A stretch of DNA of 64,000 nt from Advenella sp. S44 (lineage in GTDB: Bacteria > Pseudomonadota > Gammaproteobacteria > Burkholderiales > Burkholderiaceae_B): NCBI RefSeq assembly GCF_002810445.1, contig NZ_NEXS01000001.1:1-64000 (forward strand), read 5' to 3'. Of this stretch, positions 49,153 to 57,005 are shown one piece after another. Every line of letters begins with the position of its first letter. Within the stretch, counting starts at the first letter, position 1. Both the position numbers and the translations under genes were made by a program. The notes beneath the pieces were generated by a model. That model ran no database searches. It saw nothing but the letters and a program-made list of their open reading frames with translations, and was not told the DNA's origin.

Positions 49153-52100
49153 ATGAGCAAGTGGCAATTCTGGGTAGACCGTGGAGGTACCTTCACCGAC
49201 ATCGTGGCAATTACTCCGCAAAAAAAATTACTTACCAGAAAACTGCTCTCTGAAAACCCAAGCCAATACGAGGACGCAGCGATCGAAGGGATACGCGAGC
49301 TGCTTGAGGTTGCCGCCGGCGATCCGATTCCGGTAGACGTCATTGATGGCGTAAAGATGGGAACCACCGTTGCCACCAATGCACTACTAGAACGCAAGGG
49401 TGAACGGGTGGTTTTTTTGACAACCCGTGGCTTTGCCGATGGGCTGCGAATTGCATATCAGAATCGTCCGCGGCTATTTGACCGGCACATCGTGCTGCCC
49501 GAAATGCTATATGAGCAGGTATTGGAAGCGGACGAACGAATCGCCGCATCCGGCCAGATAATCACCGAACTGGACGAAGCGGCGTTGCAGACAATGTTGC
49601 AATCGGCTTACGACCAGGGCTTACGCAGTATTGCAATTGTATTCATGCACGCCTGGCGTAACGCAGCGCACGAAAAACGGGCAGCCGAACTGGCGCAGCG
49701 CATCGGTTTCACACAAATTTCAGCCTCCCATGAAGTGAGTCCGCTGATCAAGTTCGTATCCCGAGGAGACACCACAGTGGTCGACGCGTATCTGTCGCCA
49801 ATCCTGCGGCGTTACGTGGATCGCGTCGCGGCGCAATTGCCTGGCGTCAATCTGATGTTCATGCAGTCGTCTGGCGGCCTGTCCGACGCCCACCGCTTTC
49901 GGGGCAAGGACGCCATCTTGTCAGGCCCCGCCGGCGGTATTGTCGGGATGGCGCGAAGCAGTCAACAGGCTGGGTACGAAAAAATCATCGGTTTCGATAT
50001 GGGCGGAACATCCACTGATGTATCGCATTTTTCCGGTGCGTACGAACGCGATTACGAGACAGCTGTGGCAGGCGTAAGGATGCGTACACCAATGATGCGA
50101 ATCCATACGGTAGCCGCCGGCGGCGGTTCCATTTTGCATTTTGATGGCGCTCGCCTGCGGGTAGGGCCCGATTCGGCAGGCGCCAATCCGGGTCCTGCGT
50201 GTTACCGCAAGCAGGGGCCGCTCACCATTACCGATTGCAACGTCATGCTGGGCAAGATTCAGCCTGATTATTTCCCCGCAGTCTTCGGCCCCAATGGCGA
50301 CCAGCCGCTGGATGCGCAGATTGTGAAGGACAAATTCGAATTGCTTAGCGAGCAGGTAAGCAAAACCACGGGCCGCCGAGTGAATGCGGAAGATGTGGCA
50401 GCCGGCTTTCTTGCCATTGGCGTACAAAACATGGCAGAGGCGATCAAGCGTATTTCCGTACAGCAAGGTCATGATGTTACACGCTATACGTTGACCACAT
50501 TTGGCGGCGCTGGTGGACAGCATGCCTGCCTCGTTGCAGATGCCTTGGGGATGACAACCGTGTTTGCCCATCCACTGGGCGGCGTACTGTCGGCGTATGG
50601 CATGGGCCTGGCCGACCAGGTGGCCATTCGCCAGCAAACCGTGGAAAAACCACTGGCCGACAGCCTGATTGCCGAACTGGAACTGGTGCGCGACCAATTG
50701 GGAGAGCAGGCCAGCGCAGAGCTGACCACACGTCTGACGCCGGGGGTGCAGATCATTCTGAATACCCGCGTTCAGTTGAAATACCAAGGTACCGATAGCG
50801 CGCTGGAGGTCGATTTTGGCGACGCAGAAAAAATGCTTGAGGCGTTCAATGAGCAGTACCGCCAGCGCTATTCATTTTTGATCGAAAACCGTCCGCTGGT
50901 TGTGGAGTCTTTGCTGGTAGAAGCCGTGATTGCCGGTAGCAGGATTGAAGAGAACACGGTCACGCGACGCGATGACAGCGCACCGGTTGTAGACGCGCGA
51001 CGCCAGATGTACAGCAATGGCAACTGGCACGATACGCCGGTATTTCGACGAGAAAACCTGCAGGCAGGCGATATCGTTGCCGGCCCGGCCATCATTTCAG
51101 AAACCAACCAGACTACGATTGTGGAAGCGGGCTGGTCTGCCAGTCTCAATAGCAAGGATCACTTGATCCTGACGCGTTCAGTACCGCTGCGCAATGCGCT
51201 GGCGGTATCGACCGATGCCGACCCGGTCATGCTCGAAGTGTTCAACAACCTGTTTATGTCGATTGCCGACCAGATGGGATTGAGTCTGCAGAACACCGCC
51301 TATTCGGTCAATATCAAGGAGCGGCTGGATTTTTCCTGCGCGATTTTCGATGCCGAGGGAAACCTGATTGCCAATGCGCCGCATATGCCGGTGCATCTGG
51401 GCTCCATGAGCGAATCGATCAAAACCGTTATGCGGGAGAATGCCGGGAATATGTATCCGGGCGACGCTTATGTGGTGAACGATCCATATCATGGCGGCAC
51501 GCATCTGCCGGATATTACAGTTATTACACCAGTGTTTGATCGGGATAACAAGCAGATAATTTTTTACGTCGGCTCGCGTGGTCACCATGCCGATGTGGGC
51601 GGGCTTACGCCCGGGTCAATGCCTCCGGATTCGACAACTATTGAAGAAGAAGGCGTGCTCTTTACCAATTTCCAGTTGGTGCGCAACGGTCAGTTCCGCG
51701 AAAGGGAAGCGCGTGAGATCCTGGCCAGTGGCAAATATCCAGCTCGTAATCCCGATCAGAACATGGCTGACCTGCAGGCACAAATTGCTGCCAATCAAAA
51801 GGGGGTCAGGGAATTGCATGCCATGTGTGATAATTTTGGACTTGAGGTTGTCCAGGCCTACATGCAGCATGTGCAGGACAATGCAGAAGCGTCGGTGCGC
51901 CGTGTGATTCCGTTGCTGTGTGACGGCCGCTATACCTATAAGCTGGACAACGGCGCGGTCATACAGGTTGCAATCCGGATTCATGATGATCGCGAATCGG
52001 TAACGGTTGACTTTACCGGCTCGTCTGCACAACTGACCAATAACTTCAATGCACCGGCTTCCATTGCCGTGGCGGCCGTCCTGTATGTGTTTCGCACGCT

Positions 52101-52773
52101 GGTAAACGACGAAATCCCACTTAATGCCGGATGCCTCAAGCCAATCAATATTGTAATACCGCCGGCTTCCATGCTTAACCCCGAGCCACCCGCTGCCGTT
52201 GTCGCCGGGAATGTGGAAACGTCAATGTGCATTGTGAATGCGCTTTACGGCGCGTTGGGCGTGCTGGCTGCCAGCCAGGGCACCATGAACAACTTCACGT
52301 TCGGCAATGCGCTCTACCAATATTATGAAACGGTATCCGGCGGCACCGGGGCCGGACCGGTGCGCCTGGACTCCGACGAAGAAGGCTTTGACGGCACATC
52401 GCTGGTGCAGGCGCACATGACCAACTCGCGGCTGACTGATCCTGAGGTGCTGGAACTGCGTTTTCCTGTTCGTCTTGAATCGTATGGCATTCGCCATGGC
52501 TCGGGCGGCAAGGGCAAGTGGCATGGTGGCGATGGCGGCGTGCGACGTATGCGCTTTCTGGAATCGATGACCGCGGCAATTCTTTCCAATAACCGGATAT
52601 ACGCACCTTTTGGCCTAAAAGGCGGCGAGCCGGGGCAAACTGGTAAAAACTTTATCGAGCGCCTTGACGGTACGGTGACAGAATTGGGTCCGCAGGACAG
52701 CGCCGATCTGCAGCCGGGCGATGTATTTGTGATTGAAACACCGGGAGGCGGCGGCTACGGACGGGCAGAATGA
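49153..52773 (+). CDS. Fused 5-oxoprolinase/hydantoinase (HyuA-HyuB)
   Basis: The 1206-residue protein has the full eukaryote-like oxoprolinase layout. A HyuA half contains the N-terminal [13 protein letters not shown] nucleotide motif, [23 protein letters not shown], and the second ASKHA motif in [17 protein letters not shown] HyuB half (from about residue 695) contains [42 protein letters not shown], and ends with ETPGGGGYG. Such enzymes use ATP to open 5-oxoproline or hydantoin-like rings. The fused form and length favour 5-oxoprolinase (OplAH type), but substrate must be tested. The nearby TRAP importer may supply it. It is cytoplasmic and complete. Confidence 0.88.
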
Positions 52774-53175
52774 ACTGAATCGGCGGTGATCGGCCCGCCG
52801 TCCCCAGGTTATAAAAATCGTGTGTCCCTGTGGGGTCAGCCTTTGCTGAATGTGGTGCAAGGCATACCGCTGCAGGCTAGTGGCCACCGGGACCCGGCCT
52901 TGCAGCGCATAACCTCCAATGGGGGAAATTAACGCAGCGATTGACTTAGGGATTGACGGGGGCCGGACAGGTTCCATGGGGCATGGCATTGTCGCTTGTA
53001 TTCTGCCATGCAAACCTGCGGCAATCAGGCAAACGTGTCAGATGAAAGCAATGATCGATATTTCGTTTGTATTGCTCATCGAAGCGGATACACTATGCAC
53101 AGGGGTACCGCTAACGTCCATTGCCCCATAGTAATTTGAGACAACGATAAGAAACAGTCACCCGACGGAGACAAT
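52774..53175. other. Gap between oxoprolinase and Bug receptor
   Basis: The 402 bp gap begins with a GC-rich stem, CGGCGG (52781-52786) and CCGCCG (52795-52800), eight bases after the oxoprolinase stop, which may act as a weak terminator without a T-run. The remainder should hold the receptor promoter; a possible pair TTGCTC/TATGCA around 53074-53101 is weak. GGAG lies just before the ATG at 53176. No gene was seen. Confidence 0.4.
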
Positions 53176-54171
53176 ATGACATTCGTTTATCATCCTGCCG
53201 CGCCAATCCGCTCGCTAATGCTGGCCGCCCTTGCCGCCTGCTGTGTCGCGAACACCGCATACGCCGCTTATCCTGAACGCCCTGTAACCTTGATTGTGCC
53301 CTTCCCGCCAGCAGGCACAACAGACTTGATTGCCCGGCATATTGCCCAGGCGCTGGAAAAAGAGCTGGGTCAGACCATTGTGGTTGAAAATCGTGCCGGG
53401 GCCGGCGGCAATGTCGGCATGGGAGCACTGGCCCGCGCCAAGGCCGATGGCTACACCATTGGCATGGGAACGATCGGCACACAAACCATCAATCAGTTTC
53501 TGTATAAAGATATGCCATTTGATCCGCAAAAGGATTTGGTGCCTATTGCGCAGACAGGCACCACGCCAAACGTGATCGCTGTTAACGCCAACTCGGATAT
53601 CAAATCGCTGAAGGACCTTATTGAAAAGGCCAAAGCAGCAAAAGACAAGAAACTCAGTTATGCGTCTCCCGGCGTGGGTTCGTCGGTGCACCTGACCGGC
53701 GCCTATCTGGAGGATGCCGCCGGCATCAGCATGCTTCACGTTCCATTCAAAGGCGTGTCGGGATCCATGCCCGCGCTGATCGGCGGCCAGGTCGACATTC
53801 TGATGGATAACCTGCCCAGCACGCTATCCCAAGTGAAAGATGGCAAAAAAGTGCGCGGGATTGCGGTGACGGGCGCGCAACGCGATCCTGCCATTCCCGA
53901 TATTCCGACCGTAGCCGAATCCGGCCTGCCCGGATTTGACGTCAACGCCTGGTTCGCCCTTTACGCGCCGGCAGGCACGCCGCCCGAGGCAGTCAACACA
54001 CTGGTGGAAGCCGCAAGACAAGCGCTGGCATCAAAAGACTTGAAACAGAAGTTGGAGCAAACCAGCACCCAGCCGGGCACCATTTTTGGCACGGACATGA
54101 CCGCATTCGAGGACAGGGAACGACAGCGTTGGAACAAGCTTATCCAGGACAAGCACATTGAATCCAAATAA
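53176..54171 (+). CDS. Bug/TctC-family periplasmic receptor
   Basis: The 331-residue protein has a signal peptide ending near NTAYAAYP and the Bug pattern: YPERPVTLIVPFPPAGTTDLIARHIAQALEKELGQTIVVENRAGAGGNVG (positions about 31-80), SYASPGVGSSVHLTGA and HVPFKGVSGSMPALIGGQVDILMDN. These Venus-flytrap proteins bind small carboxylates or amides and are greatly expanded in Bordetella and relatives. No TctAB membrane genes are adjacent, which is usual for orphan Bug proteins. Its stop codon is followed almost at once by the tandem-repeat array. The ligand is unknown. Confidence 0.93.
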   Translation: MTFVYHPAAPIRSLMLAALAACCVANTAYAAYPERPVTLIVPFPPAGTTDLIARHIAQALEKELGQTIVVENRAGAGGNVGMGALARAKADGYTIGMGTIGTQTINQFLYKDMPFDPQKDLVPIAQTGTTPNVIAVNANSDIKSLKDLIEKAKAAKDKKLSYASPGVGSSVHLTGAYLEDAAGISMLHVPFKGVSGSMPALIGGQVDILMDNLPSTLSQVKDGKKVRGIAVTGAQRDPAIPDIPTVAESGLPGFDVNAWFALYAPAGTPPEAVNTLVEAARQALASKDLKQKLEQTSTQPGTIFGTDMTAFEDRERQRWNKLIQDKHIESK

Positions 54172-54195
54172 ATATATTCAAATTGATGCGTTTCT

Positions 54196-54390
54196 GATAG
54201 ACCTTTATGCAGTTCCGATACACATTTTTCGTCAGGGTAAACCTGTTCGTTCCAGATAGGCATATTTCATCCTCGATAAGCAGATTGATCTTAGATGAGC
54301 AGATTCCTTCTAGAGCGACACAGTCATTGTAGAGAAGCGTATTCACTGTAGATAAACATATTCAGTCCCAGATAATTTTATTATTAACCC
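54196..54390. repeat. Degenerate 19-20 bp tandem repeat array, about 10 units
   Basis: Ten consecutive units begin at 54196, 54217, 54236, 54255, 54275, 54294, 54313, 54332, 54351 and 54371, giving spacings of 19-21 bp. The rough consensus is GATAARCAKATTCNNTNTA, with GATA at the front and CAtATTC in the middle best kept. A similar 18-mer at 54167 overlaps the end of the receptor gene. There are no spacers, so this is not a CRISPR. The unit is not a multiple of three, so it is not a peptide repeat. It could be an array of protein-binding sites or an eroded minisatellite. Confidence 0.65.
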
Positions 54391-54406
54391 GTTCCGCGCG
54401 CGGAAC
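54391..54406. promoter_or_regulatory. Perfect 16 bp palindrome before the ThDP enzyme gene
   Basis: GTTCCGCGCGCGGAAC is a perfect palindrome ending 24 bp before the ATG at 54431 and starting exactly where the tandem-repeat array ends. Its TTCCG/CGGAA half-sites look like a dimeric repressor operator. It could also form a short RNA hairpin near the start codon. The cognate protein is unknown. Confidence 0.55.
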
Positions 54407-54430
54407 ACAGTTTAAAAGGTTTATAGATTC

Positions 54431-55987
54431 ATGAACGGAGCAGACAGTCTTTGCGATACCTTGCTGGAAAACGACATTGATGTGTGTTTTGCCAACCCGG
54501 GTACATCGGAAATGCATTTTGTAGCAGCGCTGGATCGCAAGCCGCAAATGCGTTGCGTGCTGGGATTATTTGAGGGCGTTGTGACCGGCGCGGCCGACGG
54601 TTATGCTCGAATGGCCGACAAGCCGGCGGCAACGCTGCTGCATTGCGGACCGGGCATGGCAAACGGCCTTGCCAATATGCATAACGCGAGGCGCGCTCAC
54701 ACCCCCATGGTCAATGTGGTTGGCGATCACGCCAGTTATCATCTGCAATACGACGCGCCACTGACCAGCGATATCGAAAGCCTGGCTACCCCCATGTCCG
54801 ATTGGGTAAGACGGATTCAGTCTGCTGACGACGTGTCTGGTGCAGCGGCAGCGGCCATAAGCGCGGCCAACAGTGGCTACGGCGCTGTCGCTACGCTGAT
54901 CCTGCCGGCTGACGCAGCATGGACTGAAACCGCGACCCCCATACAGAAAGCGCCGCCCGTCCAACGCACCCATGTTGCTCCTGATGCCTTGCGCGCCGCA
55001 ACCGAAGCGCTTAATAACGGTCGCAATACGGTGATTCTGCTTTCGGGCAAAGCACTGCGCAGCAAGGCGCTGGAGACAGCAGCCAGGATTGCCGAACGCA
55101 CCGGCGCCCGACTGATGGCGCAACAGTCCAATGGACGCATCGAACGTGGCGCCGGCCGTGTCCGGATTGAACGCGTACCTTTTAGCGTTGACCTGGCGCT
55201 CAACGCGTTGCAAGACACCGAGCAGTTAATTCTGGTGGGTGCGAAGACCCCGGTGGCGTTTTTTGCTTACCCAGGCAAGCCAGGCGAGCTGGTTCCGGAA
55301 AATTGCAAACGTATTGAATTGACCCAACCGGATGATGATCTGCCCGGCGCACTGGAGGCTTTGGCTGATGCCGTTGGCGCCGTTGGCGCCACCAGCACCC
55401 CTATTACGCTGCTTGCCGAGCGTAGCGATATTGGCCTGCCATCCGGCAAACTGGATGCCGCCGCAGTGATTCAGGCCATTGGCAGCCTATTGCCAGAGAA
55501 CGCAATCATTTGCGATGAGTCGTTGACCTCGGGACGAGACGCATTCAAATCCACTTTTAGCTCGGCACCCCACGATTTTCTGCAGATTACGGGCGGCGCC
55601 ATTGGTATCGGCATTCCGATGGCCACAGGCGCTGCGGTCGCATGTCCGGATCGCAAAGTGGTGCTGATGCAGGCCGACGGCAGCGGCATGTACACGCTGC
55701 AAGCCCTGTGGACACAGGCCCGCGAACAATTGGATGTTGTCACCATCATTTTTGCAAATCGCAGTTATGCCATATTGCATAACGAATTTAAGCAGGTCGG
55801 CGCCGGCGCGCCCGGTCACAATGCCCACCGTATGCTGGATCTGGACAGCCCCGCCTTCGACTGGGTTCACATGGCCAATGCAGCCGGCGTTGAAGCCGCC
55901 CGGGTCACCACAACCGCTGACTTGTCCGATGTGCTGCGAAGCGCCATGGCGCGCAAGGGGCCGTTTCTGATCGAAGCGGTGATCTGA
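54431..55987 (+). CDS. ThDP-dependent enzyme, acetolactate synthase/benzoylformate decarboxylase superfamily
   Basis: The 518-residue protein has the three-domain ThDP fold: a Pyr domain with the catalytic Glu27 in NPGTSEMHF, a central domain (about 185-330) and a PP domain with the metal-binding motif ADG-x25-N (Asp416, Asn443). The first position of GDG is Ala, as seems common in this subgroup annotated as acetolactate synthase-like. It is unlikely to be the housekeeping IlvB, since no small subunit is adjacent. A 2-oxo-acid decarboxylase or carboligase in carboxylate catabolism, with the Bug receptor upstream, is inferred. A strong hairpin follows the gene. Confidence 0.82.
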   Translation: MNGADSLCDTLLENDIDVCFANPGTSEMHFVAALDRKPQMRCVLGLFEGVVTGAADGYARMADKPAATLLHCGPGMANGLANMHNARRAHTPMVNVVGDHASYHLQYDAPLTSDIESLATPMSDWVRRIQSADDVSGAAAAAISAANSGYGAVATLILPADAAWTETATPIQKAPPVQRTHVAPDALRAATEALNNGRNTVILLSGKALRSKALETAARIAERTGARLMAQQSNGRIERGAGRVRIERVPFSVDLALNALQDTEQLILVGAKTPVAFFAYPGKPGELVPENCKRIELTQPDDDLPGALEALADAVGAVGATSTPITLLAERSDIGLPSGKLDAAAVIQAIGSLLPENAIICDESLTSGRDAFKSTFSSAPHDFLQITGGAIGIGIPMATGAAVACPDRKVVLMQADGSGMYTLQALWTQAREQLDVVTIIFANRSYAILHNEFKQVGAGAPGHNAHRMLDLDSPAFDWVHMANAAGVEAARVTTTADLSDVLRSAMARKGPFLIEAVI

Positions 55988-55997
55988 TTCAGTATCC

Positions 55998-56029
55998 GGT
56001 GAGCGCAATGGTATGTTGCTGCGCTCACC
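55998..56029. terminator. Bidirectional hairpin between convergent genes
   Basis: GGTGAGCGCA (55998-56007) and TGCGCTCACC (56020-56029) form a perfect 10 bp GC-rich stem, 10 bp after the ThDP enzyme stop and 28 bp before the end of the convergent lysR gene. It is well placed to end both transcripts, although neither side has a long T-run. Confidence 0.6.
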
Positions 56030-56057
56030 CCCTATGTGTATTCGGTTGTGTATTCAG

Positions 56058-57005
56058 CTACCCTGACTTTCGATCACGCGATTTGACCGGTCTTGCTCCC
56101 AGAAAATCATCGATTTGGGTTTGTACTTCGCTCATTTGAATTCGCATGAACTTAAGAAACTGCTTGGAACTTTCCGAAAATAGTTTATCTGACCGAAACA
56201 GCAGAATCGCGCGAAACTCGACATCAAATAGCGCTCGCTTCAGCAGCAGTCCACTGTCGGCATAACCTATTGCGGTCACAGGATTGGCAACGCCGATGCC
56301 CACCCCTTGCCTGGCCAGCTCACATACGGTTTGCGAATAAGGCGTTTCAACGATACGTCTGGGCACCACGTTGGCGTTCTGCAGCAGGGCATCCAGGCGA
56401 ATGCGACTACTGTCTTCGGCATTAAGTGCGATGAAGTCCATATCCTGAAGATCTGTGAGCGCGATAACCGACTTATTGCGCAATGGATGGTCTTGACGCA
56501 TGACGACCACGCATTGTGTTCTGTAAAACAGCGAGTGTTCCAGCCCGGCCAGTGACATTTCGTCTGCCATTAAACCAAAATCGGCTTGGCCCGAGGTCAC
56601 ATGCGCATGCACGTCCTTGGAACTCATGATTTGTAAAGAGATATAGGTTTCCGGAAAACGCTGGCGAAAGGACGCCACGACATGCGGCAAAAAGCTAAAG
56701 CCCAGCGCAGGGTACACGGCAGCAGTCAATCTGTCCGAACCACCGGACTTCAGGCTGCGAACGCGATGTTCTATTGCCTGCATACCAACAAAATGACGCT
56801 CAATATCATTGAGCAATATTTGCGCCTCGCGGGTGGGGACCAGTCGGCCGCGGATTCGTTCGAACAAACACAGATCGGCCGAGGTTTCCAGCTTGCGCAG
56901 GGATTGGCTGACAGCCGATTGCGAAATGCCTAGCAAAGCCGCCGTCTTGCTGGCCGTCCCGGACACCATGACCGAGCGGAAAATTTCGATGTCCCGGGCG
57001 TTCAT
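56058..57005 (-). CDS. LysR-family transcriptional regulator
   Basis: The 315-residue protein has an N-terminal LysR helix-turn-helix (about 1-60, with TASKTAALLGISQSAVSQSLRKLE) and a periplasmic-binding-protein-like effector domain (about 90-290). It lies in the same direction as the amino-acid ABC genes, 110 bp downstream of the ATPase, and is convergent with the ThDP enzyme. It has no divergent partner, so its target is unclear. The ABC operon or the repeat-associated ThDP gene are candidates. Confidence 0.9.
   Translation of the reverse strand: MNARDIEIFRSVMVSGTASKTAALLGISQSAVSQSLRKLETSADLCLFERIRGRLVPTREAQILLNDIERHFVGMQAIEHRVRSLKSGGSDRLTAAVYPALGFSFLPHVVASFRQRFPETYISLQIMSSKDVHAHVTSGQADFGLMADEMSLAGLEHSLFYRTQCVVVMRQDHPLRNKSVIALTDLQDMDFIALNAEDSSRIRLDALLQNANVVPRRIVETPYSQTVCELARQGVGIGVANPVTAIGYADSGLLLKRALFDVEFRAILLFRSDKLFSESSKQFLKFMRIQMSEVQTQIDDFLGARPVKSRDRKSG

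Follow-up and report, generated by a model that had tools for sequence, protein, structure and literature searches.

Does a row of evenly spaced, strongly drifted repeats in front of an enzyme gene mark a regulatory site kept in register by selection, or is it the relic of an old duplication? The question is raised by the gap between a transporter receptor gene and a ThDP enzyme gene of Advenella sp. S44 (genome G000), which lies in the window analysed here, the whole stretch of 64,000 nucleotides. A first-pass annotation had described ten degenerate 19-20 bp units at 54196..54390 and had offered both explanations, namely selection for spacing, for example through cooperative protein binding, or an old minisatellite.

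A degenerate tandem array overlaps the receptor gene end

The repeat itself was confirmed. Identity at a lag of 19 was 0.525 over 54195-54375, and the best-lag value was reached by none of 2000 dinucleotide shuffles. Within the gap (54172-54430), the best 114-column stretch showed an identity of 0.579 at lag 19, whereas none of 3000 shuffles was as high (shuffle maximum 0.465). The periodicity thus withstood the shuffle test that had been named as its possible refutation, and the array of this gap came first when the 64-kb window was scanned by lag. A 19-bp wraparound alignment scored 210, compared with a maximum of 108 among 60 mononucleotide shuffles. Because this alignment spans 54148-54382, the array starts inside the receptor ORF and not 3' of it. 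The array is therefore larger than first described, with about 12 units instead of ten. Unit starts from 54217 to 54371 agreed with our alignment, and the start at 54196 is less certain, since indels are placed there. The partial copy that had been suspected over the receptor stop codon proved genuine and is the founding unit. Tandem Repeats Finder, the tool proposed for checking the array, detected only 54324-54364 with the usual scoring, and 54176-54227 and 54246-54375 with relaxed scoring. By shuffles and wraparound alignment, the locus thus carries head-to-tail copies of a unit within the 10-100-bp range of minisatellites, beyond chance expectation. The features of the locus are collected in Table 1.

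Table 1. Positions of the array, its neighbours and a second array (window positions unless a contig is named).
Feature	Position	Strand	Basis or comment
Hydantoinase A/B fusion gene, upstream of receptor gene	49153-52773		ORF/Pfam
Tripartite tricarboxylate transporter receptor gene (TctC family)	53176..54171	+	ORF; Pfam TctC, E 2.4e-70
Degenerate 19-bp tandem array, ~12 units	54148..54382	+	Wraparound alignment vs mononucleotide shuffles
Array unit 1, within receptor ORF	54148..54167	+	Wraparound alignment start; aligns to relatives' gene end
Non-ORF stretch used for unit-origin test	54172..54400	+	Scored vs relatives' receptor end and 700 other gene ends
Last full unit of the array	54351..54370	+	Comparison with relatives; 1/19 changes vs relatives' receptor 3' end
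Perfect palindrome GTTCCGCGCGCGGAAC, outside the array	54391..54406	+	Orthologous place in six genus genomes with the locus
ThDP enzyme gene (acetolactate-synthase-like)	54431..55987	+	ORF; Pfam TPP_enzyme_N and TPP_enzyme_C
LysR-type regulator gene, 3' of ThDP gene	56058-57005	opposite to ThDP gene	ORF/Pfam
Second gene-end array, last codons and stop, ~17-bp unit	G000:C16:141905-142102 (L144)		Absent in G003 and G007

The array is absent from related Advenella genomes

The locus was compared using one genome per species. A DNA search of ten Advenella genomes, including that of S44, gave matches to the query in seven. The orthologous receptor-ThDP pair was found in five congeners, including A. 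incenata (G003), A. kashmirensis W13003 (G005) and Advenella sp. FME57 (G008). The other two are G004 and G007, which we take to be A. kashmirensis WT001 and A. mimigardefordensis DPN7, respectively. All five lack the array and keep the palindrome and the leader. The gap measures 57 bp in G004, G007 and G008, 72 bp in G005 and 73 bp in G003, compared with 259 bp in S44. By eye, the receptor end of G004, G007 and G008 directly joins the leader that in S44 follows the last unit, and G003 and G005 each carry one extra partial unit between receptor end and leader. The comparison of this gap, which the first-pass annotation had recommended, thus found the array itself missing and a trace of repetition in two species. 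Unit numbers across the species are 1, 1, 1, about 2, about 2 and about 12 (S44), with partial units counted by eye, so that unit number differs among relatives, as in minisatellites, here between species only. Conservation at the orthologous site, which would mark a regulator's array, was seen in none of the five congeners with the locus.

Trees of the receptor gene and of the ThDP gene conflict over the position of S44. The alignment of the G004 ThDP gene (G004:C1:4068561-4070104, L024) is split between residues 1-308 and 307-518, with the two parts in different frames, reflecting either a frameshift or a sequencing error. A family-wide DNA search gave matches in 10 of 151 genomes, and the five outside the genus were pieces of 21-45 bp only. 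None of 82 records from a plasmid collection covered 80% of the query; among the matches listed (20 of 82), similarity was confined to the ThDP gene start onward.

The repeat unit matches the receptor gene end

The last codons of the receptor gene, DKHIESK followed by TAA (stop codon 54169-54171), make up the founding unit. The corresponding receptor 3' end reads GACAAACATATTCAGTCCAAATAA in G004, G005 and G007; G008 differs from these only by TAG, and G003 has GACAAGCATATTCAATCTAAATAA. With the relatives' gene end taken as the unit, the non-ORF stretch scored 110, with 104 for the G003 form and 68 for the drifted end of S44 itself. As controls, 700 other gene ends drawn from 840 kb of the same genome scored at most 48, and 200 shuffles of the stretch at most 30. 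In BLAST comparisons with G008 and G004, one set of bases was aligned at two places, the receptor end and the unit at 54351. Since the relatives' receptor end matches that of S44 as well as the array's last unit, and fits better as repeat unit than each of the 700 others, the array is best read as a tandem duplication of the terminal 19 bp of the receptor gene. Where the unit originated, that the five congeners lack the array and that no conserved core is detectable are matters of observation.

We propose that the final 19-20 bp of the receptor gene (GACAAACATATTCAGTCCAA in the relatives, continuing into the stop codon) were duplicated in tandem, presumably by slippage or template switching, and expanded to about 12 copies, either in the lineage of S44 itself or further back in its ancestry. 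The initial copy would have remained the coding end with its stop codon, and the receptor protein would therefore have been unaffected. Later copies would have landed in the gap 5' of the ThDP gene and drifted near-neutrally by point mutation with few indels, which would explain why the 19-bp spacing was retained.

Unit divergence is compatible with neutral drift

Mean identity of the eight core units in register was 0.616 (61.6%), equivalent to a JC distance of 0.54, calculated by hand with inserted bases left out. The high between-unit identity of active minisatellites is thus not seen among these eight units, and the low value indicates a decayed, inactive array and not an active VNTR. At fourfold-degenerate sites of three genes, S44 differs from its five relatives by JC distances of 0.75 (G008) to 0.98 (G005). 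By this yardstick, neutral drift since some time after the species split would be enough. The raw lag-19 identity of 0.525 would correspond to a JC of 0.75, the fourfold-site value of the nearest relative. Alignable intergenic DNA of S44 and G003 differs by 0.215 substitutions per site, a value taken from regions that align throughout and are hence more conserved, compared with 0.38 for the array units among themselves. The higher unit divergence speaks for an older array or for faster change. From the raw JC of 0.75 and the intergenic 0.215 per site, the array may be as old as the species split, or older.

This bears on a second history, in which the array was ancestral to the clade and recombination between its units reduced it to one or two of them in the relatives. 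Such a history would account for the extra partial unit retained in G003 and in G005, for the junction TCYAAATAAATAT common to S44 and G003 and for ATTTCATCC common to the G005 remnant and one S44 unit (both by eye), and it fits a unit divergence above that of alignable intergenic DNA between S44 and G003. However, it requires several independent contractions, and the in-register unit divergence is below the fourfold-site divergence between species. We consider it plausible though somewhat doubtful. It concerns the age of the array and not its function, and is compatible with a gene-end minisatellite.

In 91 orthologous intergenic regions we counted 2800 substitutions and 389 indels, a ratio of 7.2 to 1. 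Because substitutions exceed indels to this extent, regular spacing combined with sequence drift is what neutrality predicts. Within the array, unit columns showed no excess conservation and mismatches were not concentrated (permutation P 0.40 for 8 units and 0.14 for 10, a test of low power). The conserved core positions expected of a regulator's array were likewise not detected across the 8-10 units, at the same low power, and nine unit starts showed no helical phasing (R 0.25, P ~0.56).

These results weigh against the units serving as a series of sites bound by a regulator of the ThDP gene, with spacing held by selection. That idea draws on about 12 evenly spaced units 5' of a probable catabolic gene, on the LysR-type regulator gene nearby and on an unusually intact last unit, which has one change from the relatives' form, compared with 4-8 in the nine other units counted. 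However, the units come from coding sequence, all five congeners keep the gene pair and leader yet lack the array, columns and unit starts show neither excess conservation nor phasing, and promoter-like matches in 54100-54500 are at chance level (1 observed, 1.0 expected), as was the promoter and terminator scan. The near-intact last unit may be due to chance or to constraint beside the leader. We regard a binding-site row as very improbable, and the selection for spacing suggested at first pass finds no support in the columns, the phasing or the five congeners.

As a cis-regulatory element of the ThDP gene, should there be one, the palindrome in its leader would be a better candidate than the array. 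It lies 24 bp 5' of the start codon, and the pattern GTTCCRNNNNCGGAACA occurs once, at the palindrome site, in each of the six Advenella genomes that carry the locus and is missing from the four that do not. The palindrome is probably an operator for the ThDP gene or a hairpin in its leader.

A weaker functional role was also considered, in which the array arose by chance expansion and would now tune downstream expression through the length of the intercistronic RNA or DNA. The rnc-fpg1 repeat of M. tuberculosis offers a precedent with the same layout, so far as the available part of the source describes it (PMC2734929), and the predicted fold of the RNA of 54148-54430 is a little more stable than that of shuffled sequence (z -1.70; as good in 9 of 200 shuffles). 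Against this, the fold signal is weak, an Rfam scan of 52000-57000 gave no match up to E 1, and the unit columns carry no sign of constraint. We hold such tuning to be quite unlikely.

On this evidence the array is, with high probability, a minisatellite that was copied from the receptor gene end, has since decayed by ordinary mutation and probably does nothing by itself; that it drifted near-neutrally and is without function is what we infer, and the unit's identity with the receptor 3' end and the missing array in five congeners bear out the earlier alternative of an old minisatellite. We class it as a decayed intercistronic minisatellite, ordinary in kind, clear in origin and probably neutral. 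Its origin is thereby explained, and regular spacing with drifting sequence need not signal selection.

Other arrays in S44 and related genomes

The first-pass annotation had also advised searching the genome for the unit. A DNA search of the S44 genome found a single place at E 0.001 or better, and the same unit is thus not spread over many genomic places as in MIRU-like families. The pattern GATAARCAKATTC, allowing one mismatch, was considered as a dispersed element linked to the locus and rejected; among the matches listed, it occurs in all ten genus genomes, including those without the locus, at 3 to 17 times the level of a backward-pattern control. The scattered matches appear to reflect codon content (DK[QH]I).

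Arrays as such are not rare. In 464 kb of S44 there were 20 intergenic arrays with a TRF score of at least 70, compared with 1.7 (ten shuffles) or 1.0 (six shuffles). Two samples of G007 gave 8 against 1.3 and 13 against 0.8, and G003 gave 5 against 1.7. The excess over shuffles is not peculiar to Advenella, as four other genera gave 16 against 2.8 (G014), 16 against 5.5 (G017), 8 against 1.8 (G027) and 3 against 1.5 (G010). In the other S44 arrays examined, the unit differs by locus. Among 24 S44 arrays scoring at least 65, 12 had both flanks in the G003 sample, where the gap was shorter in 8 and longer in 4.

The second array of Table 1 repeats the anatomy of the receptor-ThDP array: the relatives' gene end scores 118 as its unit, compared with at most 68 for 700 other ends. 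By eye, the unit of an array at 287083 also spans a stop codon, and an array at 171319 has a unit similar to the ribosome-binding region of the gene that follows it. At 54172 and 287102, none of 700 other gene ends fitted as well as the own end. At 141878, 7 of 700 other ends were as good as the own end, and the relatives' end beat all 700; at 66431 the own end was not the best unit, with 2 of 700 others as good. Two further arrays were observed in S44. A degenerate 22-bp array of about 9.6 copies begins 18 bp past a called stop (G000:C16:158979-159189, L145), and a near-perfect 8-bp repeat, ATCAGAGC, of about 14 copies lies at the 3' end of a called ORF (G000:C16:347914-348028, L155) and is possibly an active VNTR.

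We then asked how often an edge of an intergenic array lies no more than 25 bp from a called stop or start, and also at zero tolerance. Genes were called by a simple script, and the called starts are therefore rough. Near stops, S44 had 9 of 23 arrays scoring at least 80 (expected 4.5, P 0.020) and 15 of 55 scoring at least 60 (expected 10.6, P 0.083). The corresponding counts were 4 of 11 (expected 1.8, P 0.093) and 11 of 43 (expected 6.4, P 0.027) in G007, and 1 of 3 (expected 0.5) and 1 of 17 (expected 2.5) in G003. With zero tolerance at stops there was no clear excess in S44 (3/23, expected 3.3; 4/55, expected 6.7), G007 (1/11, expected 1.2; 4/43, expected 3.4) or G003 (0/3; 0/17). Near starts, within 25 bp, the counts were 2/23 (expected 4.9) and 6/55 (expected 11.3) in S44, 1/11 (expected 1.9) and 5/43 (expected 6.7) in G007, and 1/3 (expected 0.6) and 2/17 (expected 2.6) in G003.

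Arrays anchored at stops with a lag identity of at least 0.55 numbered 4 among 366 stops in S44, 3 among 317 in G007 and 0 among 174 in G003; outside the genus there were 2 among 66 in G014, and none among 83 in G017, 74 in G010 and 83 in G027. Shuffled controls gave 0 in every case. No start-anchored array was found at this limit in the seven sets (384, 342, 189, 77, 81, 88 and 101 starts). At a limit of 0.5, the seven sets gave 6, 8, 1, 3, 2, 0 and 0 at stops (controls 0.67, 0.33, 0.67, 0.33, 0.67, 0 and 0) and 3, 2, 3, 0, 0, 0 and 0 at starts (controls 1.33, 1.33, 1.33, 0.33, 0.67, 0.67 and 0). The four stop-anchored arrays of S44 include neither the receptor-ThDP array nor that at 141905, and in one of them, a perfect 8-bp repeat, the called ORF may extend into the array.

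The tests thus disagree on a gene-end bias, some pointing to one and others not, and purifying selection that removes changes close to starts would account for it equally well. A broader proposal is that Advenella repeatedly makes locus-specific arrays founded on gene 3' ends with their stops, through a gene-end-biased process, such as template switching at transcription ends, and that they pile up as spacer DNA. Because the stop kept in the first copy would make such expansions harmless, they would accumulate between genes as a growing and decaying reservoir. We consider this generalisation unlikely.

Comparison with known repeat systems

In titles and abstract openings, among the literature matches listed, no degenerate gene-end arrays in Advenella were described. 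The first-pass remark that no known element type matches was nevertheless too strong, as intercistronic tandem repeats that vary between relatives are already on record in the available part of PMC2734929. According to that part, the rnc-fpg1 gap of the M. tuberculosis complex holds 279-358 bp of repeats, compared with a few bp in other mycobacteria, and repeat length is tied to fpg1 expression. This repeat, VNTR3239/ETR-F, is the closest in layout, with repeats filling the gap in one lineage and few bp in related species. It differs in having units of 55 and 79 bp and a measured link to expression (PMC2734929, same portion).

Mycobacterial MIRUs, 40-100-bp sequences at 41 places in the account available from PMC2734929, likewise lie between genes and vary in copy number in some cases; they form a dispersed family, whereas each S44 array looked at has its own unit. 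The TAACTGA heptamer repeats of Beggiatoaceae are also tandem repeats 5' of genes, but consist of one fixed heptamer, mostly immediately upstream of start codons, as far as the accessible text of PMC4679880 describes them. Unlike these, the S44 arrays vary in unit sequence and length by locus.

With bacterial minisatellites and VNTRs in general, the array shares a short, locus-specific, intergenic tandem unit whose number varies between relatives. For E. coli minisatellites, a unit identity limit of 90% was used, according to the available part of PMC2884548, whereas the receptor-ThDP units are only about 62% alike. Being far under 90%, the array would be missed by such minisatellite catalogues. 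If the wider pattern is true, decayed gene-end duplications would be an under-recorded source of intergenic DNA that escapes notice at a 90% identity limit.
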